Shown here: piece after piece, positions 5,926 through 26,206 of the stretch
Layout of the letters: each line of letters starts with the position of its first letter
Numbering within the stretch: position 1 is the first letter of the stretch
NCBI GenBank assembly: GCA_020057405.1
Contig: JAGVFW010000003.1
Coordinates: 62,001-126,000 of the forward strand
DNA: 64,000 nt
Direction of reading: 5' to 3'
Source of the DNA: an archaeon
GTDB taxonomy: Archaea; Micrarchaeota; Micrarchaeia; Norongarragalinales; UBA97
The notes under the pieces: generated by a model
The model's database searches: none
What the model was told of the DNA's origin: nothing
Seen by the model: the letters and a program-made list of their open reading frames with translations, nothing else
Position numbers and translations under genes: made by a program

Positions 5926-7557
5926 TTAGTGGCCACCGTATTTCTTGTCCATTTCCGCAAGCTTTTTGTCGATTTTCTTTTCCGACTCGAGGCGCTCGAG
6001 GGTCGGCGAGGCCGAGTGGTCGACGAAAGTCATGTAATTGGCAAAGGCGGGGTGAACTTTTCCGATTTCGGCGTGCATTTTCTGGGCCATGCGACGGTAA
6101 TCGGGATGGCCCTGCGGAGTCGAGCGCAGTTCAAGCAGGTGGAATGCCTCGCGGAGGTTCAGGTCGGCGTACCAGCGCACGCGGTAGGCCATTGGCACGG
6201 CGTACTGGGCTTCTGATGCATGTGACTTGACAATCTCGTCGTAAGCGTTTGCGGCAACGGCCATGCAATCGTTGAATTCCGCGTCGAAGCCTGCGTCGAC
6301 GAGTTCTGACGGCAGGTCGTAGCCAAGGCGAGTGGTTAGCTCCTGACGCTCTTGGGTGAGCATGCGATGGCGCTGGAGGTCGCGGTAGGCGCCGTAGTTG
6401 CAGCAGAGGTCGAAAGTGTAGCGCGGGAGCTCGAAGGCTCGGCCGGGTTTGTTGCGGCGGTTGGCGCGCTCGCCAACGTAAGTCTTGATTACGGTTGCGC
6501 GCTCGTGGGCCGGCATTGCAGCAGCCTTTTGCCGCAAGTCTGCCATTGAATCATGCGAGTGGGGGTAGAGGGCTGCTGCGATAATGCGCTCTTCGGCGTT
6601 GGCATCGTAGTCGATGAGGGTGACTTCCTTTGAGAATGACGCCGCCGCCTTGTTTTGCTTTGCCGCGTGGCGCAGGTTCCGCCGGATTGCCTTCCAGTAC
6701 GCCTGCTGCTGGACGCCGTAGGCGTTGTTCGCGCGCTTGACGAAAGACGGGATTACTTTTGCGAGTTCCTCGTTCATTGCGCCTGAAATGTTTCTGATTT
6801 CCGCCAGGTCGCTTGAATACATTTTAGTGAGCAGGTACTCAAATGACCTGCCGTTGCCGTAAATGCCGGTATTCGTGATTGTCGAGGCCGGCAGCAGGCC
6901 GCGAAGCAAGTCGCAGGTCTTCGCGCGGACGGTAGACTTGTACGCCCTGTCGCTGACTTCAGTTTCTTGCGGGAAGCGCTCGATGACGTAGGCGCTGACT
7001 TTTGGAATGAGTTTTGCGTAGGTGCTGAAGAGTTTTTCGCAAGTTGCGACGTAGAGGTCGGCCTGGTGTGACGCCATTAGCGTTGGCTCGCGCAGGTAAA
7101 GGTACTCGCCGTTGACTTTCTCGTCGAAGTAGACGTAGCGCGTTGACTTCTCAAGCGGGCTTAGTCCGATGCGGCTGTCCTGGAGTGCTTTCGTTGCAAT
7201 GTTGCTTACTTGCTCGCAGGCAATGTGGACTCCCGCGAGTTCAGCGACACTATCATCGCCGTAGCCGACGAGGACTCTATCGTAGAATTCCTCTGCTTTC
7301 TTGATGGCAACGACGTCGGAGACGCCCCGCTCTTGCTGGTGGCCGACGATTGCCTCAAAGCCCATTTCGGGCGCGTTGATGAATTCGTCTAGAAGGACAC
7401 GGCGGAGGCTCTTTGCGGTGCGCGAGTAGCGGGAGAAGAGGGCGCCCTTGACGACTTCGGGGAGGTTCTTGAGGGCGAAGATGGGCTTGTCGAGGTTGGT
7501 GAAGAAGGGCGCTAGGATTTTTTCTTCTTCGGGGGTGAACTCGGTCATGTTTTTCAC
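5926..7557 (-). CDS. Double-domain ThyX-family (FAD-dependent thymidylate synthase-like) protein
   Basis: A 543-residue protein made of two ThyX-like halves. The C-terminal half contains DLQRHRMLTQERQELTTRLG, which fits the ThyX flavin/dUMP motif region. The N-terminal half holds a degenerate equivalent (FSRYSRTAKSLR) and GYGDDSVAELAG. Single-domain ThyX enzymes are about 220-250 residues, so this is a fused duplicate. It overlaps the dCTP deaminase/dUTPase-like gene by 4 nt (GTGA), supporting a role in dTMP synthesis from dUMP. The start is the coupled GTG at 7557; the ATG at 7548 is an alternative. Catalytic competence of the N-terminal half is doubtful. Confidence 0.85.
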   Translation of the reverse strand: MKNMTEFTPEEEKILAPFFTNLDKPIFALKNLPEVVKGALFSRYSRTAKSLRRVLLDEFINAPEMGFEAIVGHQQERGVSDVVAIKKAEEFYDRVLVGYGDDSVAELAGVHIACEQVSNIATKALQDSRIGLSPLEKSTRYVYFDEKVNGEYLYLREPTLMASHQADLYVATCEKLFSTYAKLIPKVSAYVIERFPQETEVSDRAYKSTVRAKTCDLLRGLLPASTITNTGIYGNGRSFEYLLTKMYSSDLAEIRNISGAMNEELAKVIPSFVKRANNAYGVQQQAYWKAIRRNLRHAAKQNKAAASFSKEVTLIDYDANAEERIIAAALYPHSHDSMADLRQKAAAMPAHERATVIKTYVGERANRRNKPGRAFELPRYTFDLCCNYGAYRDLQRHRMLTQERQELTTRLGYDLPSELVDAGFDAEFNDCMAVAANAYDEIVKSHASEAQYAVPMAYRVRWYADLNLREAFHLLELRSTPQGHPDYRRMAQKMHAEIGKVHPAFANYMTFVDHSASPTLERLESEKKIDKKLAEMDKKYGGH

Positions 7558-17013: not shown

Positions 17014-17250
17014 ATGGTAGGTGGTTTTGTGGAGAATGTGAGTGTTGACAAGTCGGGCCGCTTCGTTATTCCAAAGAAGGTGCGAGCCGAGTTTGACACC
17101 AACGTGTTTTCAGTAGAGGTGGAGAAAGACGCCATTGTCTTGCGGCCGAAGAAGGGCCTTAGGGGACTTTTTGGCACGTTTCCGGACCTCGACATGAAGG
17201 AATTCGAGAAATGGAAGAGGGAGGAAGTAGAACGTGAGAATTCTTCTTGA
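17014..17250 (+). CDS. SpoVT/AbrB-type antitoxin (VapB-like)
   Basis: A 78-residue swapped-hairpin DNA-binding protein (VSVDKSGRFVIPKKVR, then VFSVEVEKDAIVLRPKKG) with a charged C-terminal tail that would wrap the toxin. It pairs with the PIN toxin whose start codon lies inside its last 17 nt. Translation may begin at the ATG (17014) or at the GTG at 17029, which has GGTGG just upstream. An AT-rich stretch (TTTATTAATG) supplies a promoter. Confidence 0.87.
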   Translation: MVGGFVENVSVDKSGRFVIPKKVRAEFDTNVFSVEVEKDAIVLRPKKGLRGLFGTFPDLDMKEFEKWKREEVERENSS

Positions 17251-17608
17251 CGCTTGGGCCATCCTTGAACTCATCAAGGGCAGCGACAAGGGCGCAAAAG
17301 TGGAAGAAATCGTGCGCGATAGCACGCTTGCCTGCACCACTTCCCTAAATCTCTACGAAGCGAAATACAAGCTTACCGGCCGGTACGGCGAGGCCAGAAT
17401 CGACAAAATGCTCGATGAAGTCAGGGCAACAACCCAAATCCTCCCAATCACCGAAGAAGCCGCGCTTGCGGCAGCGGAAGTAAAGCTGCAGCAAAAGCAG
17501 CTAAGCGCAGTTGACTGCAACGCTTATGCTGTCGCCCGGCTCCACAAACTAGAATTCGTTACAGGCGACAAGGGTTTTACCGGACTCGAAGGCGTCGTGC
17601 TGGTCTAA
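17234..17608 (+). CDS. PIN domain toxin (VapC-like RNase)
   Basis: A 124-residue PIN nuclease with acidic residues in the expected places: LLDAWA (Asp, strand 1), NLYEAK (Glu), SAVDCNAYA (Asp) and VTGDKGF (Asp). It probably cleaves tRNA or rRNA when free of its antitoxin. The GTG start overlaps the antitoxin gene by 17 nt. The stop codon lies inside the first copy of the 17-bp array repeat. The last nine codons plus the repeat recur at 23796-23834, where the rest of the toxin gene is missing. Confidence 0.87.
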   Translation: MRILLDAWAILELIKGSDKGAKVEEIVRDSTLACTTSLNLYEAKYKLTGRYGEARIDKMLDEVRATTQILPITEEAALAAAEVKLQQKQLSAVDCNAYAVARLHKLEFVTGDKGFTGLEGVVLV

Positions 17609-17644
17609 GTGCAGGGGGAGCGACTCTAGCTTCTTACTAGAGTC
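17604..17644 (+). repeat. Array repeat copy 1 with hairpin
   Basis: Core TCTAAGTGCAGGGGGAG at 17604-17620, overlapping the vapC stop codon. It is followed by a perfect 8-bp hairpin, GACTCTAG (17622-17629) and CTAGAGTC (17637-17644). The left flank matches copy 4 over the 3' end of vapC. See the array finding. Confidence 0.85.
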
Positions 17645-17710
17645 TGAAGCACCGGGCAGTTAACCCCACAAAACGTTGTTTTTTATGCATGCCAAACAAT
17701 CGCGCCCCTC

Positions 17711-17755
17711 TAGGCGTAGTCACTTAGAACGATTAATTTAAATAGGCGTAGTCAC
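17711..17755 (+). promoter_or_regulatory. fic (17767) promoter bracketed by 13-bp direct repeats
   Basis: TAGGCGTAGTCAC occurs at 17711-17723 and again at 17743-17755, exactly 32 bp apart (three helical turns). The TATA box TTAATTTAAAT (about 17732-17742) sits between the two copies. The start codon follows 11 bp after the second copy. A repressor bound to both would cover the promoter. Confidence 0.65.
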
Positions 17756-17766
17756 CTATTACTACT

Positions 17767-18705
17767 ATGCACGTTGAACTCCGCAAGGCTGGCGAGGGTC
17801 GTAAGTTCTACTTGGCACACTCATACCGGAGAGGCAAGAAAATAGTCAAGCTCCGCATCTACCTTGGCGCGAACCTTTCCCCCGATGAAATAGTGGAGAA
17901 AAAACACCTTGCCGAAAGCACGCTTCGCTATCGTGTCGATGCCAGCGCTGCCATGAGCGACCCGTTTGAAACCGCGCTTTCCAAGGGTGAGCTCGAGGAG
18001 CTTAAGACGCTTGAGGCCAAGGGAGAGCTCGCCATCAAGCACTTGTCCGAGGAGGACTGGCGCAACTTTACCGAAGCGTTCACTTACGACACGAATGCCA
18101 TCGAAGGCTCCACCATACTCCGGGAAGAAGTAGGGGACATCCTCGAGCGCGGGAAGTGGCCGGACAAGCCGAAGGGAGACATATCCGAAACGTATGGCGT
18201 GGCGAAAGCCATCGAACACGTAAGAAAAACCAAGGAGCACATCTCGCTGCCGCTGCTTTTAGAATTGCACCGCATAGTTTTCCTGAACTCTAAGCCGTAC
18301 GCGGGAAAGTTCAGGGCGCGCGGAGTGGAAGTAGTCGTGGCGGACGCATACGGGAATATCCTGCATCGCGGCGCCCCTTCGACGCAAGTGCGAAAGCTCC
18401 TAAAGCGGCTGGTGGAATGGTACGGGAAGAACAAAAAGCGCTACCCGCCACTAGTCCTCGCCGCCGTAGTGCACAACCAGTTCGAGAACATCCACCCGTT
18501 TCAGGACGGCAACGGGCGGGTCGGCAGGCTCTTGCTCAATAATATCCTGCTCAAACACGGGCTGCCGCCGCTCAACATCGAACTGCGCAACAGGCACGAA
18601 TACTACGCGGCGTTGCAGGCGTACGAGCACAAGCATGACATCCGGCCCACAATCCAGCTCATGCTCAAGGAATACCGTGCTCTCAAGAAACTCCTCAAGA
18701 GGTGA
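17767..18705 (+). CDS. Fic family protein (class II) with N-terminal accessory domain
   Basis: A 312-residue Fic protein. Residues 1-60 form an accessory domain (FYLAHSYRRGKKIVKLRIYLG) of a kind also seen at the start of IS1634-type transposases and of archaeal Fic proteins. The autoinhibitory motif TNAIEGS and the catalytic HPFQDGNGRVGRLL follow. It shares architecture with the Fic protein at 18875-19816 but is on the opposite strand and diverged. The promoter has two 13-bp direct repeats. The inverse motif GGTGACTAC straddles its stop codon, with GTAGTCACC 13 bp later. Confidence 0.9.
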   Translation: MHVELRKAGEGRKFYLAHSYRRGKKIVKLRIYLGANLSPDEIVEKKHLAESTLRYRVDASAAMSDPFETALSKGELEELKTLEAKGELAIKHLSEEDWRNFTEAFTYDTNAIEGSTILREEVGDILERGKWPDKPKGDISETYGVAKAIEHVRKTKEHISLPLLLELHRIVFLNSKPYAGKFRARGVEVVVADAYGNILHRGAPSTQVRKLLKRLVEWYGKNKKRYPPLVLAAVVHNQFENIHPFQDGNGRVGRLLLNNILLKHGLPPLNIELRNRHEYYAALQAYEHKHDIRPTIQLMLKEYRALKKLLKR

Positions 18706-18731
18706 CTACACCGCACAATTTTGTAGTCACC
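18701..18731. repeat. Inverted repeat GGTGACTAC / GTAGTCACC at the 3' end of fic (17767)
   Basis: Perfect 9-bp arms at 18701-18709 and 18723-18731 with a 13-bp spacer. The left arm overlaps the stop codon. The same GTAGTCAC core forms the direct repeats in this gene's promoter, so the gene is bracketed by one motif on both sides. It may act as a terminator hairpin or an operator. Confidence 0.7.
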
Positions 18732-18741
18732 CAAAACAGCG

Positions 18742-18798
18742 TGCTTCTAGCCCTAGTCTAAGTGCAGGGGGAGTAAGCTTAGACCTGGACTAAGTGCA
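18742..18798 (+). repeat. Array repeat copy 2
   Basis: Core TCTAAGTGCAGGGGGAG at 18757-18773, preceded by the left arm GCTTCTAG. The core is flanked by GTCTAAG and CTTAGAC in inverted orientation. It is followed by TAGACCTGGACTAAGTGCA, which looks like a second, truncated copy. The 58-bp direct repeat begins exactly there. It lies about 37 bp after the fic stop codon. Confidence 0.85.
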
Positions 18799-18855
18799 TA
18801 CCGAAACGAAAGCACGATAATGCCGAATGTGGCAAAGCCAAATAAAAAGTGTCTC
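18798..18855 (+). repeat. 58-bp direct repeat, left copy
   Basis: Begins ATACCGAAACGAAAGCAC and ends AAAAAGTGTCTC. It matches the copy at 19921-19978 at 53 of 58 positions by eye. It sits 19 bp beyond the 3' end of the minus-strand fic gene (18875) and contains a small TGCC-GAATGT-GGCA dyad. Confidence 0.9.
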
Positions 18856-18874
18856 GAGTTTGAGCGGACTTGGG

Positions 18875-19816
18875 CTATGCGCGCTTGTCGTGCCCGTTTT
18901 CGGCTTGTTCTTCGGGTTTCAGGATCGTGTACTGCTCAAGCAATTGCTGGGAAAGAAAGCTCGCGAAAGGCTTTTGGTTTCCCTTGTCCGCTTCTTCGAT
19001 CGCGTTGTAGTATTGTTCCTTGTTTCTCGTTTCAATGATTGCCGGCGGGAATCGATTCCGCATGAGGATCCAGTTCATCAACAGCCTTGACGTGCGACCG
19101 TTGCCATCGGTGAAGGGATGGATTTGAACGAACCCATTGTGCAACCATGATGCCAATTCTACAGGATGAAGCGCGCGCTTATTTTTTTGATATTCCTTGA
19201 AGAGTTCGCCCATCAACCGCGGTACGTCCTTTGCTGCCGGAGGCTTCCAGTCCGAACCGCCGATTCCGACTTCACTGTCGCGGTAATCGCCTTGAATCCT
19301 GCACGTCGTGTTTTTCGTGATCTCAAACTGTATTTTGCACGCGAATTCCTTGTTCACCTGTCCCTTGTACGACTTGACGAATTCCCACGCATCCTTGCCG
19401 TTCAACACCTCGATGACGTCGTTCGTCTTTACGCCTTGCGGCGCGATTCCTTCGGAAAGAATGAGCGCGGTTTGCCGCAAGGTGAGCGGATTGCCTTCGA
19501 TCGCGTTCGTGTTGTACGTAAAGCGCACGAGAAAATCGCTCGGCACCATGCCCTCCGGAAAACCCTTGAACGCGACTACGGCTGAATGCAAGTCCTCGAG
19601 CCGATCTTCCGCTTCCTGCGACAGCCACTTCGCCTCGTAAGGCTTCGGCGCCTTTCGTTCAAGCTCTGAAAAATACTTTTGCAACTCATCGTGGCCTGGC
19701 ACTTTCCTCCCCAAAAACACCCGAACTTTGCTAACCTTGGTGGGAGAAAGGCGCACGCTCTTGACGAGGTAGAAATAGTCGTGCTTCCCGTGCCTCTGCT
19801 TCTCGATAAACGCCAT
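18875..19816 (-). CDS. Fic family protein (class II) with N-terminal accessory domain
   Basis: A 313-residue Fic protein. The same N-terminal accessory domain as the protein at 17767 is present (YFYLVKSVRLSPTKVSKVRV). TNAIEGNPLTLRQT is the inhibitory helix and HPFTDGNGRTSRLL the catalytic motif. The gene lies between two 58-bp direct repeats. Its promoter has three copies of a TGTAGCCATA-like motif around the TATA box. Targets are unknown; the accessory-region location suggests a toxin or defence function. Confidence 0.9.
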   Translation of the reverse strand: MAFIEKQRHGKHDYFYLVKSVRLSPTKVSKVRVFLGRKVPGHDELQKYFSELERKAPKPYEAKWLSQEAEDRLEDLHSAVVAFKGFPEGMVPSDFLVRFTYNTNAIEGNPLTLRQTALILSEGIAPQGVKTNDVIEVLNGKDAWEFVKSYKGQVNKEFACKIQFEITKNTTCRIQGDYRDSEVGIGGSDWKPPAAKDVPRLMGELFKEYQKNKRALHPVELASWLHNGFVQIHPFTDGNGRTSRLLMNWILMRNRFPPAIIETRNKEQYYNAIEEADKGNQKPFASFLSQQLLEQYTILKPEEQAENGHDKRA

Positions 19817-19818
19817 AA

Positions 19819-19897
19819 TATGGCTACATCTTCAAACTATTTAAATATTGTGGTCATAATGCCTACTTTTACGCGCCTAATATAAATTGTAGCCATA
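19819..19897 (-). promoter_or_regulatory. fic (18875) promoter with three TATGGCTACA-type operators
   Basis: On the plus strand TATGGCTACA lies at 19819-19828, TGTGGTCATA at 19849-19858 and TGTAGCCATA at 19888-19897. The first and third are perfect inverted 10-mers; the middle one has two mismatches. The minus-strand TATA box AATATTTAAATAG (about 19837-19849) lies between the first and second sites. Confidence 0.6.
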
Positions 19898-19920
19898 CGG
19901 ATTAATCTCGAGGGGAATTT

Positions 19921-19978
19921 ATACCGAAACGAAAGCACAGAAATGCCGAATGTGGCAAAGTCGAATAAAAAGTGTCTC
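19921..19978 (+). repeat. 58-bp direct repeat, right copy
   Basis: Second copy of the repeat at 18798-18855 (53 of 58 identical by eye). It ends 9 bp from the 3' end of the minus-strand exporter gene. Both copies therefore lie just downstream of a minus-strand gene. Confidence 0.9.
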
Positions 19979-19987
19979 TGCTTTTGG

Positions 19988-20731
19988 TTAAATCAAGTGA
20001 AGACCCGAAGCCAAAGCAACTAACCCCGAAAGCAAGACCAAAACCAATGAAATTTTCCTAAATAATTCGTCATCGACCTTGTGGACGATTGCCATGCCTG
20101 CAAGAGAACCTACGACCATTGCCGGAAAAAGCATAATCGTATAATTAATCACCTCGTTCGTAAGCAGGCCGTTCACAAAATAGAACGGAATCGTGAGAAG
20201 AAAGAGAACTGAAAAATAGGCGACTAAATCGGCGCGAAAATCATCTTTTTTTGTCCCTTGGTTTGCTAGAAAGAGCACTACTGGCGGACCGCTCATGGTG
20301 GTGCTGCCGTTAAGGACTCCACTTGCAAAGCCCGTTATCGCAAATCCCGTCAGCTTATTCTTTATTTCACGCCTGAAGCCAACGATCAACGCCAGGGCGG
20401 TTAAGGCGACTATTGTTCCTGCGAAAATTTTTAGCGTTGCAACGTCCAAATACAAGAGAATCCAAGTTCCTATCGGAATGCCCGCCAACCCGGCAACCAG
20501 CAATGGAAGTATGCGTTTGAAGCTGACGTTACGCCAGACCTGCACTAACACGATGAAATTTATCGCAGTGTTAAGGAGGAGAACTATTGGTATTGCCGTC
20601 TTTGGAGACAAGAAAAGTACGAGGAGTGGAACCGATACAAGGGCAAAACCAAATCCCGTCAAACCATAAGTCAAAGCAGCCAGGAGGATTATTGCAAACG
20701 CAAAAACAATCGGGATAGAAACTTCAAACAA
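19988..20731 (-). CDS. TauE/SafE family membrane transporter
   Basis: A 247-residue protein with about eight hydrophobic helices. The N-terminal repeat has LTYGLTGFGFALVSVPLL, and the second half has the related GFASGVLNGSTTMSGPPVVLFL, giving the two-fold repeat of the TauE/SafE (DUF81) family. Members export sulfite, sulfoacetate or related anions; the substrate here is unknown. The gene lies within the accessory array with a 58-bp repeat at its 3' end. The start codon lies about 160 bp from array copy 3. Confidence 0.85.
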   Translation of the reverse strand: MFEVSIPIVFAFAIILLAALTYGLTGFGFALVSVPLLVLFLSPKTAIPIVLLLNTAINFIVLVQVWRNVSFKRILPLLVAGLAGIPIGTWILLYLDVATLKIFAGTIVALTALALIVGFRREIKNKLTGFAITGFASGVLNGSTTMSGPPVVLFLANQGTKKDDFRADLVAYFSVLFLLTIPFYFVNGLLTNEVINYTIMLFPAMVVGSLAGMAIVHKVDDELFRKISLVLVLLSGLVALASGLHLI

Positions 20732-20881
20732 GGTAATTCAACTCTGCCAATTTACATTATCGCTCAGTTTGTTTAAATAGTGCCTAATGCCCTTTCGTTG
20801 ATCACCTAAAAAATGCTGAATTAATTAACGGCCAAATTCTACATTTCTGTGTAACATGAGGGCGAAAAACTTCGGTATACC

Positions 20882-20925
20882 TTTAGACCAGGTCTAAGTG
20901 CAGGGGGAGTGCTTTGAACCCACGG
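20882..20925 (+). repeat. Array repeat copy 3
   Basis: Core TCTAAGTGCAGGGGGAG at 20893-20909, preceded by a perfect palindrome TTAGACC-A-GGTCTAA (20883-20897) that overlaps the core. The right flank TGCTTTGAACCCAC, read on the minus strand, resembles a tRNA T-loop followed by an acceptor strand. It lies 23 bp beyond the 3' end of the beta-helix gene. Confidence 0.85.
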
Positions 20926-20932
20926 AATAGGG

Positions 20933-23704
20933 CTACCCGCGGGGGAAGGGGAAGTCGGCCATGAGGCCTACGGGAGTGGTGTTGAAGTTGGTGAAGCCGG
21001 TTGCCAGGACTGCCCCGTTTTGGACGAAGTAGTCGCCTGCGGCGGGATTCCTGAACTGGGGGTCGGCGGTGACTGAATTGACGTCAAAGCCGTATTGCGA
21101 CTGCCATTGGGCGAGAGGGATTTTTGGCGTTCCTACTTGAATCGTATACCTCCCATCAGGCCGGTAAAACGAGTTGTAATCCGAAGCGCTTACTTTGTCG
21201 GATTGCCAGTCTGCAAACTTGAACATGGTGGGATCGAGCGCGTTCGAGGTGGAGGCATAGAAAATATTGCGAGTAATGTTCAGGTGGTGGTTGGGCATGC
21301 CCAGATACGCTTGGAAGAAAGCAAGCTCTCGCGGCTCGTCGGTTGCTACAATGTTGTTGGTGAGCGTGTTGTAATCGCCTTTGATTAAGAAAGTATAGGG
21401 ATTGGTGCGGATGTTGTAAACGAGGTTGTTGCTGACCATATTGTATCCGGACCCATCGTCAAGGTACATGCCAACGGCGAATGGATTGTTGACTTGAGTG
21501 GTCGCGGTAATGTCGTGAATGACATTGTTGGTGATGAGATTGTCCTTGCCGGAACCCCACAAATAGATTCCGCCGCCGTCATGCGTGTCCCGCATCACGT
21601 CCGAAACGTCGTTAAAGGCGATGGTGCCGTTTCTGGCGTAGACGTAATCGCGGTAGTTTTCCTGAGTTGCGTCCGGAATGAAAAGTTTAGTGTAGTTGAG
21701 AGTAAAGCCGAGGTAGAGGATTCCAGCGTAATTTCCGCGGTGGATTTTGTTGAAGGACACGTTGGTCGAGCTGATGCGCGCGAGAAGCATTCCCGCGGCC
21801 CTCGAATAGCGCCGGCCGAAGTCGTAAAAGCGGTTGTTGACAATGCGGTTAAAGCCACTCACGTCGCCATTGCCCGGATAAGGGCCGCCCAATTTGATTG
21901 CATCAGCGCCAAGCTCGTTTAGGTAATTGCCGTAAATGTCAAGGCCAGTAACGTAGAAGCCGCCCGTAATTCCATGAGTCAGTTGCTTGAATTCATTGAA
22001 GCGCACGCGGATGTTGTCGGCGTAGGCCACATGCAATCCCGTGGGCGTGCTTAGCGGCCCGTTGGAATTGGCTGTCTTAAAGCCGTTGCCCATTTCGAGA
22101 GTCAGGCCGCGCAGTTCGATGTTCGACGTTTTTACCGAGGGCGAAGAGCCGGAGACCTGGATTATCCGCTCGATTGTGGGCGCCAGGATTTCCTGCGAGT
22201 CAATCGGCGCGTTTCGCGGCCAGTAGTAAGTCAGGCCGGTCGTCTCGTCGTAGAAAAATTCTCCGGGAGAGTCAAGAAAGTCGAGTGAATTGATGAGGGC
22301 AAACCGGTTGTTGAGTCTTATGACGTAGCTCGTGTTGGCTGACAGGTTGATTGTGCGGGTGGAGAAGTTGACGTAAGTGATGGGAGTTATGTCAACGGCC
22401 CAGTCGTAAACGTAAGAGCCGCTTCCGCCGGGGAAGATGTAGGCCTTGGCACTGGAGTAGGAAAACGTGTCGGGAAGCGCGCCGGACGGGTAGACGAAGC
22501 TCGTGAAGTTGTTGTCGCCATAGCCGGCAACTTTCAGGTAACCTGAATTGGGCGTGCGCGCGGGCACCGCCTCGACGCCATTTTCGTAAAGCGAGTAAAT
22601 ATTGGGGCCTATGTTTGCAACGTAGATGTTGCCTGAATAAAGCGTCCAGCCGGTCGCGGCCTTGGATGCAATCAACCTTGGCTTCTCGCCGTAGTAGTTG
22701 CGCCAAATAACGCGATAGCCGTTCTTTCCGGAATCCGGGGGCTGGAGCAAAAGCCCGCTCGTAAGGTAGTACTTCCCACCTCGAAGAAAGACAACCGCAT
22801 TAGAGGTCATTCCGGAAGTGATGTTGGTGCGGATTGTAGTCTGGGCTTTTGAGAGTGTTAGGAATGGTGCGGTTAGTGTGCCGGGGTTGTTGTCATTGCC
22901 GTTTGTTGCAACGTAGAAGAAGACTGTCGAGTCGCAGGCGTCGCCCACGCCATTCTCGTCCGCATCCCATTGGTTGGCGTTCGCCACTGACGGACAATTG
23001 TCAACTGAATCGAGCACGCCGTCGTCGTCTGAGTCGGGCGGGGGCGTCGGAGTCGGCGTGGGAGTGGGAACGCAGGAGGGGCACGGTGTTGGCGTGGGTG
23101 TAGGCGAGCCGCTTGGCGTGGGGCTCGGCGTTGGGCTGCTGTTTGGAGTTGGCGTTGGGCTTCCTTGCGGGCCCGGAGTTGGGGTCGGCGATGATGTTGG
23201 CCGGGGGGTGACTATAGGGAGAGTAGAGTTCACGCAGTGCTCGGCAGGCGCGATTGATATTCCTTCGCAGCTGGCGACACACACGTTAAAGTAAGTCCTG
23301 CCGTCAGAGCCGCAGACCGGCGTGTAAACGCTTGGGCAAGCGCATGGGTCGGGCGTAGGTGTTGCCGTCGGCACCGGAATCGGCTGGACTGAAGGCATTG
23401 GCGTGGGCGTTGGGCTGGGCGTCACGATTGGCGTTGAAAATAAGTCGAGTCCCCGCAAGCCGAACAGGTTTTTGCCTAGCTCGCGAATTTTGGTGACGAT
23501 TTTCATCTGCGCATCCACCATCTGCTGCGCAACAGAAACAATAGGATGATACTCCGATTGCGTAGGCGGGGAAGAAACGATGAAGAAAGAACCTGCGAGT
23601 GTAATGTAAGCCAAAACCGCGATTAGAAAAACGATTGTAAAGGCCGACGCCGCACTTTCGCCTAACCTACCGCGCAGCGCCTCCAGCTCTTCCCAAAAAT
23701 CCAC
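20933..23704 (-). CDS. Secreted multi-domain surface protein: Kazal, TSP3 and right-handed beta-helix (paralogue)
   Basis: A 923-residue paralogue of the protein at 8127-11069. It has an N-terminal hydrophobic segment (TIVFLIAVLAYITLAGSFF), a Kazal-like domain (CACPSVYTPVCGSDGRTY), a Pro/Thr-rich linker, a TSP3 loop (DDDGVLDSVDNCPS) and a C-terminal parallel beta-helix. The first ~350 residues closely match the paralogue up to RNYYGEKP. After that the helix domain is strongly diverged. The start is GTG behind a TATA box of the same sequence (TTCTTAAATTCC). It is the only large structural gene in the accessory array. Confidence 0.85.
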   Translation of the reverse strand: MDFWEELEALRGRLGESAASAFTIVFLIAVLAYITLAGSFFIVSSPPTQSEYHPIVSVAQQMVDAQMKIVTKIRELGKNLFGLRGLDLFSTPIVTPSPTPTPMPSVQPIPVPTATPTPDPCACPSVYTPVCGSDGRTYFNVCVASCEGISIAPAEHCVNSTLPIVTPRPTSSPTPTPGPQGSPTPTPNSSPTPSPTPSGSPTPTPTPCPSCVPTPTPTPTPPPDSDDDGVLDSVDNCPSVANANQWDADENGVGDACDSTVFFYVATNGNDNNPGTLTAPFLTLSKAQTTIRTNITSGMTSNAVVFLRGGKYYLTSGLLLQPPDSGKNGYRVIWRNYYGEKPRLIASKAATGWTLYSGNIYVANIGPNIYSLYENGVEAVPARTPNSGYLKVAGYGDNNFTSFVYPSGALPDTFSYSSAKAYIFPGGSGSYVYDWAVDITPITYVNFSTRTINLSANTSYVIRLNNRFALINSLDFLDSPGEFFYDETTGLTYYWPRNAPIDSQEILAPTIERIIQVSGSSPSVKTSNIELRGLTLEMGNGFKTANSNGPLSTPTGLHVAYADNIRVRFNEFKQLTHGITGGFYVTGLDIYGNYLNELGADAIKLGGPYPGNGDVSGFNRIVNNRFYDFGRRYSRAAGMLLARISSTNVSFNKIHRGNYAGILYLGFTLNYTKLFIPDATQENYRDYVYARNGTIAFNDVSDVMRDTHDGGGIYLWGSGKDNLITNNVIHDITATTQVNNPFAVGMYLDDGSGYNMVSNNLVYNIRTNPYTFLIKGDYNTLTNNIVATDEPRELAFFQAYLGMPNHHLNITRNIFYASTSNALDPTMFKFADWQSDKVSASDYNSFYRPDGRYTIQVGTPKIPLAQWQSQYGFDVNSVTADPQFRNPAAGDYFVQNGAVLATGFTNFNTTPVGLMADFPFPRG

Positions 23705-23795
23705 GCTAGGCTAACGCCAAGGGAATTTAAGAACAGAACGGCTCTCTGCTGTCGAAACACTAATGGAAAAGAAAAAAAGCGCATAGCTAACGGTG

Positions 23796-23822
23796 GAACT
23801 CGAAGGCATCGTGCTGGTCTAA
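23796..23822 (+). pseudogene. Remnant of a vapC 3' end
   Basis: Codes for ELEGIVLV and a stop, against GLEGVVLV and a stop at the true end of the PIN toxin gene (17608). The nucleotide match continues without a break into array repeat copy 4, exactly as the toxin gene continues into copy 1. No toxin coding sequence precedes it. The rest of a second toxin gene was probably lost by recombination or deletion. Confidence 0.75.
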
Positions 23823-23879
23823 GTGCAGGGGGAGTACGCTGAGACGTCGTCTAGAAGCGGACTTTGCGAGACACAATTG
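23818..23879 (+). repeat. Array repeat copy 4
   Basis: Core TCTAAGTGCAGGGGGAG at 23818-23834. The left flank matches copy 1 (vapC end). The right flank (CGCTGAGACG, GTCTAGAAG, GGACTTTGCGAGACACAATTG) matches copy 5. The copy is thus a hybrid of the two, as expected from recombination at the core. Confidence 0.88.
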
Positions 23880-23915
23880 ATTCGTTGATTAATATAGTCC
23901 TAAAATCAATTATTC

Positions 23916-24707
23916 TTGACAGAGGGAATCAACTTGATTTTGCGTCCAAGAACTTTAAAGTCAATGGCTGAACAACTAGCCCAATTGCCCCCTCAAAGAC
24001 GGAAAGTAGTGGTTTTAGTCGGTAGACACCTAAATGAAGGGTCAGTAAACTTAGCAAACAGGTGTCATGAATCTTGGGGAAAAAAAGGCGCGGTCACCAT
24101 CCAACTTCCAGTGGACTGGACTCCAGAAGGTTTTTGGCATAGTGCGATGCAACGAAATCTCACTGCTGAAGAAGTAGAGAATGAAGCGAAAGCTATTCCT
24201 TCAGATGAGGCTATTTTAGACTTTCTCTTCAAAAGAGGATTTCGAATTCCGGTTCTAAATATCCACGGCGCTGGACACGAGGCGCGCGATATAACTAATT
24301 CTTCTGCGGAAACTGCCGAGAATAGGGAAAAAATCGAGACTGAACGGACTCCGACAACAAGCATAACCACAGGTAATAAAACGAGAATTTTCGAGCACAA
24401 ACTCATTCGCCATCACTATGGTAATATTGAACATCCTAACGAAATTTTGATAGAAATATATTATGGCGGATCTAAAAGAAATACTAAATCTCTAGAATAT
24501 GCGGTAGGTTTGGATCCGCATTCGAGACTCGCAGTTAACAATTCTCCGAGTTATATTGCAAAAAGATACTTGCGCGGCATCGTTATCAACCGCGGTTCAC
24601 TTGAGCGCCTTCACAAGGACGTGACTCCGAAAATAGAAGAACTGATTGAACACCTATCAAAAACCGGTCTAAAAGCAAGGCTTGGAAAAAGAGACTATAT
24701 TCGCTGA
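23916..24707 (+). CDS. Uncharacterised protein
   Basis: Up to 263 residues; no family recognised. A hydrophobic strand KVVVLVGRHLNEG near residue 30 and VLNIHGAGHE near residue 115 hint at an alpha/beta hydrolase-type fold with a conserved His, and RYLRGIVINRGSLERLHK near the C-terminus is charged. A middle section (residues 128-155) is Thr/Glu-rich and probably disordered. The sequence is clearly more AT-rich than its neighbours, suggesting acquisition. Starts are uncertain: TTG 23916 (near-leaderless behind TTAATATA), TTG 23934 (after GAGGGA) or ATG 23962. GAGACACAATTG upstream and AATTGTGTCTC right after the stop bracket the gene. Confidence 0.7.
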   Translation: MTEGINLILRPRTLKSMAEQLAQLPPQRRKVVVLVGRHLNEGSVNLANRCHESWGKKGAVTIQLPVDWTPEGFWHSAMQRNLTAEEVENEAKAIPSDEAILDFLFKRGFRIPVLNIHGAGHEARDITNSSAETAENREKIETERTPTTSITTGNKTRIFEHKLIRHHYGNIEHPNEILIEIYYGGSKRNTKSLEYAVGLDPHSRLAVNNSPSYIAKRYLRGIVINRGSLERLHKDVTPKIEELIEHLSKTGLKARLGKRDYIR

Positions 24708-24718
24708 AATTGTGTCTC
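24708..24718. repeat. AATTGTGTCTC at the 3' end of the unknown gene
   Basis: Begins at the base after the TGA stop. It is the exact inverse of GAGACACAATT at 23868-23878 in front of the same gene, so the gene is enclosed by an inverted 11-mer. Confidence 0.7.
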
Positions 24719-24751
24719 TGGATATGAAAACAAGTCGTTGGCGACAAGGTC

Positions 24752-24834
24752 TGCTTCTAGACCTGGACTAAGTGCAGGGGGAGTGCGCTTAGACGCGGTC
24801 TAGAAGTGGACTTTTCGAGACACAATTGTGTCTC
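24752..24834 (+). repeat. Array repeat copy 5, most complete copy, with nested inverted repeats
   Basis: The core is GACTAAGTGCAGGGGGAG (24766-24783). Outer arms CTTCTAGAC and GTCTAGAAG are perfect 9-bp inverses. Inner arms CTAAG and CTTAG flank a 15-nt centre, TGCAGGGGGAGTGCG. The spacers are 5 nt on each side (CTGGA, ACGCG), so the site is symmetric over 53 bp. The unit continues into GGACTTTTCGAGACACAATTG, shared with copy 4. It lies 44 bp beyond the end of the unknown gene. Confidence 0.88.
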
Positions 24835-24845
24835 AATCTATAAGT
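24817..24845 (+). promoter_or_regulatory. Palindromic operator and TATA box of the ParB-like gene
   Basis: GAGACACAATTGTGTCTC (24817-24834) is a perfect 18-bp palindrome. It directly precedes the TATA element CTATAAG (24838-24844), about 25 bp before the ATG. Half-sites of the same sequence flank the upstream unknown gene, so one regulator may act on both. Confidence 0.65.
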
Positions 24846-24868
24846 AGTCTTGTTTCACAAGTGATAGT

Positions 24869-25204
24869 ATGCGAATATCCTTTCGGGCTTTTGAACACCG
24901 TTATCCTGGCACCTATGGGACGAGCATGCTTTCTGCCAACGAACTGAGAGAAGCGAAATCGCTGAGGACATTCATAACTCGCAAAAAGTACGAAGATGCT
25001 ACTCGAGGAATTCCAAAAGGAAATCCAAAAATCGTTCGCGTCTTGGGTGAGATTTTTATCATCGACGGCCATCATCGAAGTAGGTTTGCCGTAGATCGCG
25101 GGGAAGGAATCACGGTAGAGCATTTCGAAACTGACTCTAAAGCACTCAAATTTATTTTGGATAAAAAGGCAAAAGCCAAGATTGGAGGAGTGGAAATTCG
25201 TTGA
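24869..25204 (+). CDS. ParB/sulfiredoxin-like nuclease-fold protein
   Basis: A 111-residue single-domain protein. FIIDGHHRSRFAVDRG carries the conserved D-G-H-H-R signature of the ParB N-terminal/sulfiredoxin-like superfamily. It has no HTH or C-terminal partner domain, so a chromosome-partition role is unlikely. Stand-alone members occur in mobile elements and as DNA-modifying or nuclease proteins. The gene forms the smallest unit of the accessory array (474 bp between copies 5 and 6), has a palindromic operator in front, and is AT-rich. Confidence 0.75.
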   Translation: MRISFRAFEHRYPGTYGTSMLSANELREAKSLRTFITRKKYEDATRGIPKGNPKIVRVLGEIFIIDGHHRSRFAVDRGEGITVEHFETDSKALKFILDKKAKAKIGGVEIR

Positions 25205-25227
25205 TGAACGAAAAACGAGGCAGTACA

Positions 25228-25275
25228 CTTCTAGATGTTGTCTAAGTGCAGGGGGAGCGATTTGAACTCTTGAAC
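25228..25275 (+). repeat. Array repeat copy 6, right end of the array
   Basis: Core TCTAAGTGCAGGGGGAG at 25241-25257. The left arm CACTTCTAGATG resembles those of copies 2 and 5. The right flank CGATTTGAACTCTTG, read on the minus strand, is GAGTTCAAATCG followed by CTCCCCCTGCA, resembling a degenerate tRNA T-arm and acceptor end. It lies 23 bp after the ParB-like gene and 28 bp before the 3' end of the DUF2090 gene, a core metabolic gene. Confidence 0.85.
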
Positions 25276-25285
25276 GCCGTTGAGT

Positions 25286-26206
25286 TTAGCGCTTTTCGCC
25301 CTGCCAAAGCGAGACGAATTCCTTGTAGTTTCGGGCAACCATCTCGACTGCTTCCTCGCGCGAGTGCTTGCCGTCCTTCAGGCCCGCCAGGGCGTCCCAG
25401 AAGATGGTGCGGCCGACTGCAAAACCGATGATACCGGGAATTTTGGCGCCAACGGAAAGCCATTCCTTGACTTTTTCCTTGCTTTCGCCGCGGCCGAGCG
25501 TGATGACGCCGGCTTTCCTGCCGTTTGCCTGCGCTTGGGCGACTATTGCACGCGCGTCCTTTGGCGAATCAACGCCCTCCATCTTCCAGACGTCGGGCTC
25601 GACGCCTGCGGCCTGGATGTCGGCCATTGCGCGGACCATGAGCTTGGGGCGAAGTTGGGAATCGTAAGCGGCCTTGTCCCCATTGAGTTTCGCCAACTGG
25701 TCGGCGGTCGCGGGGACGAGGAGCTCGAAGAGGTAACCCCGATTGGTGCGCTCGAGGTATTCGCCGAGGGTCTTGAGGCGGGCGAGCTGGCGCTTGTTCA
25801 TCACGGCATCAGCTTCGTGGTTGTAGCGCACGAGCACTTTTGCGAATGCGGGTGCAAAGTCTTCTAGGTGGTGGCCGAATGCCCCGCCGTACTCGAAGTC
25901 AAACTCGTCCTGACCGCTTTTCTCAACGGGCATGGCGAAGTTTACGCCATTTGCTCTCGCGTCGACCGCGATTGCCGCGCCGAACTGCTCGTCAACGAGA
26001 ATGCCTGCGATGGGCTTTGGCACGCCATCGGCAATCGCCTTTGAGAAGCCCTCGTAGACGACTTTCTTGAAGTCGCAAATGCGGGAAGTCTCTGCCACGG
26101 TAGGCGGGCGTCCCTTGATGCCGAATAGCTTCTCCATGAACGACCCGCGGTGGTCAAACGCGAGAATGAGCAGCTGCCGCTTAGTAAAGTCCTTCTCCAA
26201 TGCCAT
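25286..26206 (-). CDS. DUF2090 aldolase-like protein
   Basis: A 306-residue TIM-barrel protein matching the DUF2090 family (the C-terminal domain of bacterial IolC): LAFDHRGSFMEKLFG, GILVDEQFGAAI, FELLVPAT, WKMEGVD and GFAVGRTIFWDAL. In bacteria the domain is linked to 5-keto-2-deoxygluconate-6-phosphate aldolase activity. Here it is a stand-alone gene 32 nt downstream of glpX with no inositol genes nearby. A fructose-bisphosphate or related aldolase role feeding GlpX is therefore plausible, but inferred from context only. Its 3' end borders the accessory array. Confidence 0.85.
   Translation of the reverse strand: MALEKDFTKRQLLILAFDHRGSFMEKLFGIKGRPPTVAETSRICDFKKVVYEGFSKAIADGVPKPIAGILVDEQFGAAIAVDARANGVNFAMPVEKSGQDEFDFEYGGAFGHHLEDFAPAFAKVLVRYNHEADAVMNKRQLARLKTLGEYLERTNRGYLFELLVPATADQLAKLNGDKAAYDSQLRPKLMVRAMADIQAAGVEPDVWKMEGVDSPKDARAIVAQAQANGRKAGVITLGRGESKEKVKEWLSVGAKIPGIIGFAVGRTIFWDALAGLKDGKHSREEAVEMVARNYKEFVSLWQGEKR

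Follow-up and report, generated by a model that had tools for sequence, protein, structure and literature searches.

In a 64,000-nucleotide stretch of a Micrarchaeota genome (contig JAGVFW010000003.1, positions 62,001 to 126,000; hereafter the window), accessory genes stand in a row, separated by copies of a short core repeat. We propose that this row is an array of small cassettes without an integrase of their own, which very probably entered by site-specific recombination at an attachment site that stems from a tRNA-Leu 3' end. A core equal to the tRNA-Leu end, cassette ends that pair with each other, ends shared with an integrase-bearing element and a Fic cassette that recurs in other genera together point to an integrase-less, integron-like array. 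A sequence-only reading of the window had recognised the cassette array but missed the tRNA-Leu origin of its core.

Read on the opposite strand, the core is the tRNA-Leu 3' end CTCCCCCTGCA followed by CTTAG. In the source genome (G000; a 1.22-Mb assembly of 17 contigs, 91% complete and, like all genomes compared here, assembled from environmental DNA), the copy at C16:59175 forms the 3' end of a tRNA gene (37.8 bits in Rfam). The core adjoins a tRNA-Leu 3' end at this place and in G003, G004/G017, G005, G006, G007, G019, G037, G121 and G159, where G004 and G017 are counted once for a near-identical contig common to both. The tRNA-Leu beside the core is TAG in G004/G017 and CAG in G005, and it bears an intron in G007. 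The core also tracks the local tRNA end. In G010 it reads GGGGGTG, both at the tRNA and at the site near the integrase, it is CTTCCCCTGCA at three sites of locus L111, and in the Diapherotrites locus L142 it is the end of tRNA-Thr. Since the core is a tRNA 3' end, the system appears to be built on tRNA-targeted integration. On its right, the window array ends in a 3' fragment of a tRNA-Leu gene (Table 1), which reaches an anchored score of 15, where 400 shuffles gave no score above 9 and 1500 random places none above 10. The array may once have sat at a tRNA-Leu gene.

Two side observations concern these tRNA loci. The near-identical contigs of G004 (C1, L028) and G017 (C53, L069) belong to genomes of two families, which probably reflects a binning error. 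In G006 (C69, L090:7600-7830), a tRNA-Leu gene seems to be split by an insert in the T-arm, with an integrase directly adjoining; other tRNA-Leu genes of the order of G006 also seem to bear introns.

The window holds six copies of TCTAAGTGCAGGGGGAG, all on the plus strand, at 17604, 18757, 20893, 23818, 24767 and 25241, where shuffled sequences predict 0.10 matches at up to three mismatches. The sequence-only reading had found all six, with the fifth placed one base too early, at 24766; this copy differs from TCTAAGTGCAGGGGGAG at its first base, which is A and not T. Its unit sizes agree with ours (1153, 2136, 2925, 949 and 474 bp), as does its statement that plus-strand genes run up to a copy: they end 0-60 bp upstream of one, and the vapC TAA lies inside copy 1. 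A genome-wide search of G000 with the 16-mer CTAAGTGCAGGGGGAG returned 11 exact copies, and 12 places at up to two mismatches, while a reversed control pattern gave 0 matches. Outside the window, cores lie at C1:12.2-12.9 kb (two), on C11 (one) and on C16 (two), and a further one with two mismatches is found at C1:48 kb. Weaker copies form a second small array at C16:52.7-54.5 kb (L017:10735-12549), whose cargo is a poly(A)-polymerase/CCA-adding-like protein and a 191-aa protein of no recognised kind. No Rfam family matched in the array region of the window.

Each site consists of an arm CTAAGTGCA, a 7-bp middle GGGGGAG and an arm TGCRCTTAG, with longer inverted arms outside. Such a 9-7-9 arrangement is expected for the core of a tyrosine recombinase, and by its sequence the site looks like one. 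The outer arms are of type A (CTTCTAGACC..GGTCTAAG and its complement) or type B (ACTCTAG-N7-CTAG and its complement). Across 26 units from 14 arrays, some of which have shared ancestry, the complementarity between a unit's own ends averages 19.3, versus 15.0 (sd 0.86) with permuted partners. None of 20,000 permutations reached the observed mean (P < 5e-5), and the nine units of G000 alone gave P = 0.018. Because a cassette's own two ends pair best, closing the unit into a circle would rebuild a long palindrome with the 7-bp core in its middle. Folding predicts long hairpins at circle junctions 2, 4 and 5, and in situ only at site 5; the idea of an in-situ hairpin at every copy was rejected on this ground. 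No T-run lies downstream of the hairpins. The covarying ends would fit both a dyad-symmetric protein site in double-stranded DNA and a hairpin in a folded single strand.

The view of the units as cassettes, put forward in the sequence-only reading, is supported by complementary ends, recurrence between cores in other genera, insertions that split conserved neighbours and recombinases beside the sites in relatives. Cassette E opens with 60 bp (GCTTAGACGCGGTCTAGAAGTGGACTTTTCGAGACACAATTGTGTCTCAATCTATAAGTA) that can be aligned to the beginning of the G005 integrase element and include 30 identical bases in succession. At its other end, where it adjoins tRNA-Leu, this element matches the final 76 bp of cassette D at 84% identity (E 9e-18). 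This 3' end of cassette D occurs at three places in G000 (the window, C1 and C16) with differing cargo or context. The Fic gene of cassette A lies between cores in G000, G015 and G019, which represent three genera, in units of 1.11-1.15 kb whose locations are unrelated to one another. Identity to the window unit is 80% over most of the length in G015 and 73% in G019; DUF2090, a housekeeping neighbour of the window array, is only 56-58% identical between G000 and either genome. In G019, RelE/ParE-like, Fic and RelE-like cassettes form a row, with a tRNA-Leu 3' half at its end. A relative of the Fic gene in G004 has no recognisable core, and in two other Micrarchaeota a relative lies directly upstream of an integrase. 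Conserved gene order is broken at uvrA-uvrC, whose gap measures 27-98 bp in G003, G004, G005, G018 and G026 versus ~1.49 kb in G000, where it contains a cored cassette and a vapBC pair. The nrdR-DUF2090 interval was also considered as a syntenic empty site and was rejected: the neighbours of DUF2090 vary between genera, so that no clean empty version exists.

The protein annotation of the window contains no tyrosine recombinase, in agreement with the sequence-only reading, which had suggested that one might lie near another cluster. Relatives do have such enzymes beside these sites. A tyrosine-recombinase gene starts ~100 bp past the core in G005. Both G006 and G037 have an integrase that starts directly past the tRNA-Leu end, and G006 has two integrases next to the site or tRNA-Leu. 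In G010, a 5.7-kb element starts at tRNA-Leu and has the integrase at its opposite end; in G036, the integrase lies within one unit of a three-site array. An integrase likewise adjoins a site or tRNA-Leu at L096, L099, L108, L111 and L126, with tRNA-Leu directly upstream at L099, L108, L111 and L126 (a complete genome, Candidatus Fermentimicrarchaeum limneticum). In Diapherotrites (L142, 6477-16500), tRNA-Thr-derived cores at 6540, 9147, 16090, 16256 and 16438, as well as others, surround an integrase of the same family. The integrase locus of G005 is identical to CAINOH010000023, and the site-bearing relatives of the order are named Candidatus Micrarchaeota.

The relatives' enzymes are 55-64% identical to that of G005, and R169, K195, H267, R270 and Y302 are invariant in their alignment. 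The alignment also indicates a C-terminal zinc ribbon of the CxxC type, to which DZR gave weak matches. The nearest solved relatives of these zinc-ribbon enzymes are XerA-like recombinases, with XerA-like models matching below the cut-off. A scan of named genomes for the integrase returned 79 loci, mostly in Micrarchaeota, and at E <= 1e-40 the family is present in 90 of 301 Micrarchaeota genomes. By a crude test that counts T-arm motifs, a tRNA or such a motif lies just upstream in at least 19 of the 69 testable integrase loci, versus 5.7% of control windows (motif).

In the mechanism we envisage, each cassette would bring half a palindrome at either end, and circularisation would make the palindrome complete again around the core. 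The enzyme would be a XerA-like zinc-ribbon tyrosine recombinase, encoded by autonomous elements at the tRNA-Leu sites of relatives, which would excise cassettes as circles. It would also join a circle to any resident core, acting in trans on cassettes that lack an integrase. With repeated insertion, cassettes would accumulate head to tail, all facing the same way. Mobilisation in trans is the most likely route; recombination itself, the action in trans, the circular intermediates and the exact position of the crossover are what we infer from the patterns above.

Several observations weigh against this proposal. ARAGORN detects no intact tRNA in the window. The only recognisable tyrosine recombinase of G000 (PF00589; 382 aa, on C17) shares 34% identity with the G005 enzyme; it lacks a zinc ribbon, and no core lies near it. 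Two cores of G000 (C11 and C1:48 kb) are apparently single, and unit C of the window (2.9 kb) fails the end-pairing test, with rank 24 of 26. In the viral contigs searched, neither a relative of the integrase nor the site was found, and a viral origin was rejected for this reason. A hidden second integrase in G000 was also considered; a search with the G005 enzyme as query returned the C17 gene only. The acting enzyme of G000 may have been lost, may lie in the unassembled part of the genome, or may be the C17 relative. The C16 contig stops at 59371, ~195 bp from its tRNA-Leu core and within a cassette. The lone core at C11:90.7 kb (L016:9760) has type A arms and lies directly 3' of a gene, with no second core nearby; it is perhaps a scar left by excision.

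A serious alternative, to which we give somewhat less than an even chance, is that the array consists of tandem decayed integrative elements, or cis-mobilisable elements (CIMEs). These would be ordinary tRNA-Leu islands whose integrase was deleted and which piled up, with no dedicated cassette system. In line with this, the same site and ends are used by autonomous elements that carry an integrase, and the arrays of G036 and L142 mix integrase units with small units. Accretion of CIMEs at tRNA genes is a known process (Pavlovic 2004 and Bellanger 2011, cited in PMC5704250). Like the units described here, CIMEs are integrase-less and bounded by att sites and stand in tandem at the 3' end of a gene such as a tRNA gene. 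CIMEs are mobilised by the recombinase of a related element, in trans or in cis, as the units described here may be. The attachment core is identical to the tRNA 3' end, as in tRNA-targeted elements, and the window cassettes are att-bounded without genes for integration or transfer. An element-encoded tyrosine recombinase is absent from the window and present in G005, G006, G010, G036, G037 and L111. By membership, the array belongs with integrase-less elements that have accreted at a tRNA site, and its units are unusually small and modular. Unlike CIMEs, however, the units measure 0.5-2 kb, hold one or two genes, have palindromic arms and no conjugation genes, and recur between genera. They are gene-sized and have short ends in common but different cargo, and one Fic cassette, with no integrase, is found in three genera. 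The pattern suggests that the small form has moved repeatedly.

The other explanations are less likely. One is that the array was built after a single integration, by homologous recombination between tRNA-Leu-derived repeats. In its favour, sites 1 and 4 have 37 bp in common at 97% identity, including the core and the vapC 3' end, and unit B contains a 58-bp repeat. This process may have shaped units B and C, but it explains neither the paired ends nor why one cassette should turn up in other genera at locations unrelated to each other, and as a full account we consider it improbable. That the core is a plain dispersed repeat (a miniature inverted-repeat transposable element, a repetitive extragenic palindrome or a terminator) lying between accessory genes by chance is very unlikely. 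Copies also occur on C1, C11 and C16, two of them apparently single, but orientation is uniform within nearly all arrays, ends pair cassette by cassette, cores adjoin tRNA-Leu genes and integrases, and no T-run follows the hairpins. Apart from those two single copies, the core is not scattered through ordinary intergenic spaces with the same gene order in all relatives, the outcome that the sequence-only reading had named as decisive against it.

The least credible explanation, in our view, is a cluster of attC sites lacking an integron integrase (CALIN). Integrons have been reported in other archaea (Ghaly 2022, PMC9668308); a word search of the main text of that paper returned neither tRNA nor Micrarchaeota. 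The array works like an integron array but is no integron, having neither an attC motif nor IntI. Integrons and CALINs resemble it in their gene-sized cassettes with one site for one or two genes, tandem same-strand arrays, toxin-antitoxin cargo and a hairpin-capable site that is restored in the circle. However, as the sequence-only reading had concluded, the classical attC motif is lacking: no GTTRRRY/RYYYAAC pair occurs within +-50 bp of any of the six sites, and a lone GTTRRRY lies near site 6. The middle of the site is strictly conserved in sequence and not just in structure, and this conserved core lies mid-palindrome rather than at the edge. No IntI with its extra domain was found, and with the integron-integrase model the associated recombinases reached no more than 48 bits, far below its cut-off of 265 bits. 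The core is a tRNA-Leu end and the platform a tRNA, and at least some cassettes appear to carry their own promoter.

Elements tied to tRNA genes offer further comparisons. SSV- and pNOB8-type archaeal integrases target tRNA genes and, as here, are tyrosine recombinases that use the tRNA 3' end. In SSV-type elements the attachment site lies within the integrase gene, which is split on integration; here, the integrase frames are whole, with the site beside the gene and not within it, and the enzyme has a C-terminal zinc ribbon. Tycheposons of marine bacteria are larger tyrosine-recombinase elements at tRNA genes and share with our arrays the variable cargo, but minimal integrase-less cassettes in rows are not a tycheposon hallmark. 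The term tycheposon is found in PMC10872708. In the literature searched, outside which most subscription journals lie, no description of such arrays in Micrarchaeota was found. The parts thus resemble known kinds (tRNA-targeted integrases and CIME accretion), and gene-sized, tRNA-tied cassettes in DPANN archaea look undescribed. A more speculative reading, which we regard as possible but rather doubtful, is an independent DPANN counterpart of the integron. Here, one-gene cassettes with palindromic ends would be captured by the zinc-ribbon recombinase at a fixed tRNA-Leu platform (tRNA-Thr in Diapherotrites), possibly via folded single-stranded sites, and would form exchangeable arrays of toxin and accessory genes.

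The features of the window array are listed in Table 1. The cargo annotation of the sequence-only reading largely holds (MazE-like antitoxin, PIN toxin, two Fic proteins, TauE exporter and surface beta-helix/Kazal protein), as do the flanking genes NrdR and DUF2090. Its series of cassettes holds for A, B, D and E. Unit C is probably not a clean cassette, because its ends do not pair, but a host segment between two arrays. With unit C set aside, sites 1-3 and sites 4-6 of the window would form two separate arrays, each beginning after a vapC 3' end. Cassette B is probably two fused cassettes, because its 58-bp start sequence occurs twice (18798-18855 and 19921-19978, a direct repeat at 91%, containing the palindrome AATGCCGAATGTGGCA). 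A similar palindrome, AATGCCGAATTCGGCAT, precedes the integrase in L132 and is perhaps an operator. The GTAGTCACC repeats that flank the Fic gene of cassette A (17711-17767 and 18700-18733) are also present around Fic relatives in L029, L063, L068, L098 and L132; they are likely autoregulatory operators. PADLOC labels on the window Fic proteins are general Fic matches only, and the 263-aa and 111-aa proteins of cassettes D and E have no match in Pfam, NCBIfam or PADLOC.

Table 1. Features of the cassette array, in window coordinates.
Feature	Coordinates	Strand	Remarks
MazE-like antitoxin and PIN toxin (vapBC)	17014..17608	+	left edge of array
Site 1 core	17605..17620	+	left arm is the vapC 3' end, vapC stop codon within core; right arm type B, 17621-17652
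Cassette A	17621..18773	+	Fic protein, 312 aa, 17767-18705, between GTAGTCACC repeats
Site 2 core	18758..18773	+	left arm 18739-18757; right arm type A, 18774-18805
Cassette B	18774..20909		second Fic protein 18875-19816 (-) and TauE exporter 19988-20731 (-)
Site 3 core	20894..20909	+	left arm 20871-20893; right side weakly like tRNA-Leu T-arm (nominal P 0.0025)
Unit C	20910..23834		surface beta-helix/Kazal protein 20933-23704 (-)
Site 4 core	23819..23834	+	left 21 bp repeat the vapC 3' end of site 1; right arm type A, 23835-23866
Cassette D	23835..24783	+	263-aa protein without known family; 3' end common to C1 cassette and cassette at C16 tRNA-Leu
Site 5 core	24768..24783	+	full palindromic arms, 24746-24767 and 24784-24814
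Cassette E	24784..25257	+	111-aa protein 24869-25204; promoter-like start GAGACACAATTGTGTCTCAATCTATAAGTA; homologous to start of G005 integrase element
Site 6 core	25242..25257	+	left arm 25222-25241
3' fragment of tRNA-Leu gene	25247..25287	-	right end of array, just beyond site 6

Taken together, these arrays suggest a testable route by which Micrarchaeota, with their tiny genomes, may gain and swap accessory genes, collecting single-gene cassettes, many with toxin genes, in rows. Since the sites mark the borders of the units exactly, this cargo of toxins and proteins of no recognised family can be catalogued. The tRNA-anchored architecture reaches Diapherotrites and may be a second way in which nature has solved the problem addressed by integrons.

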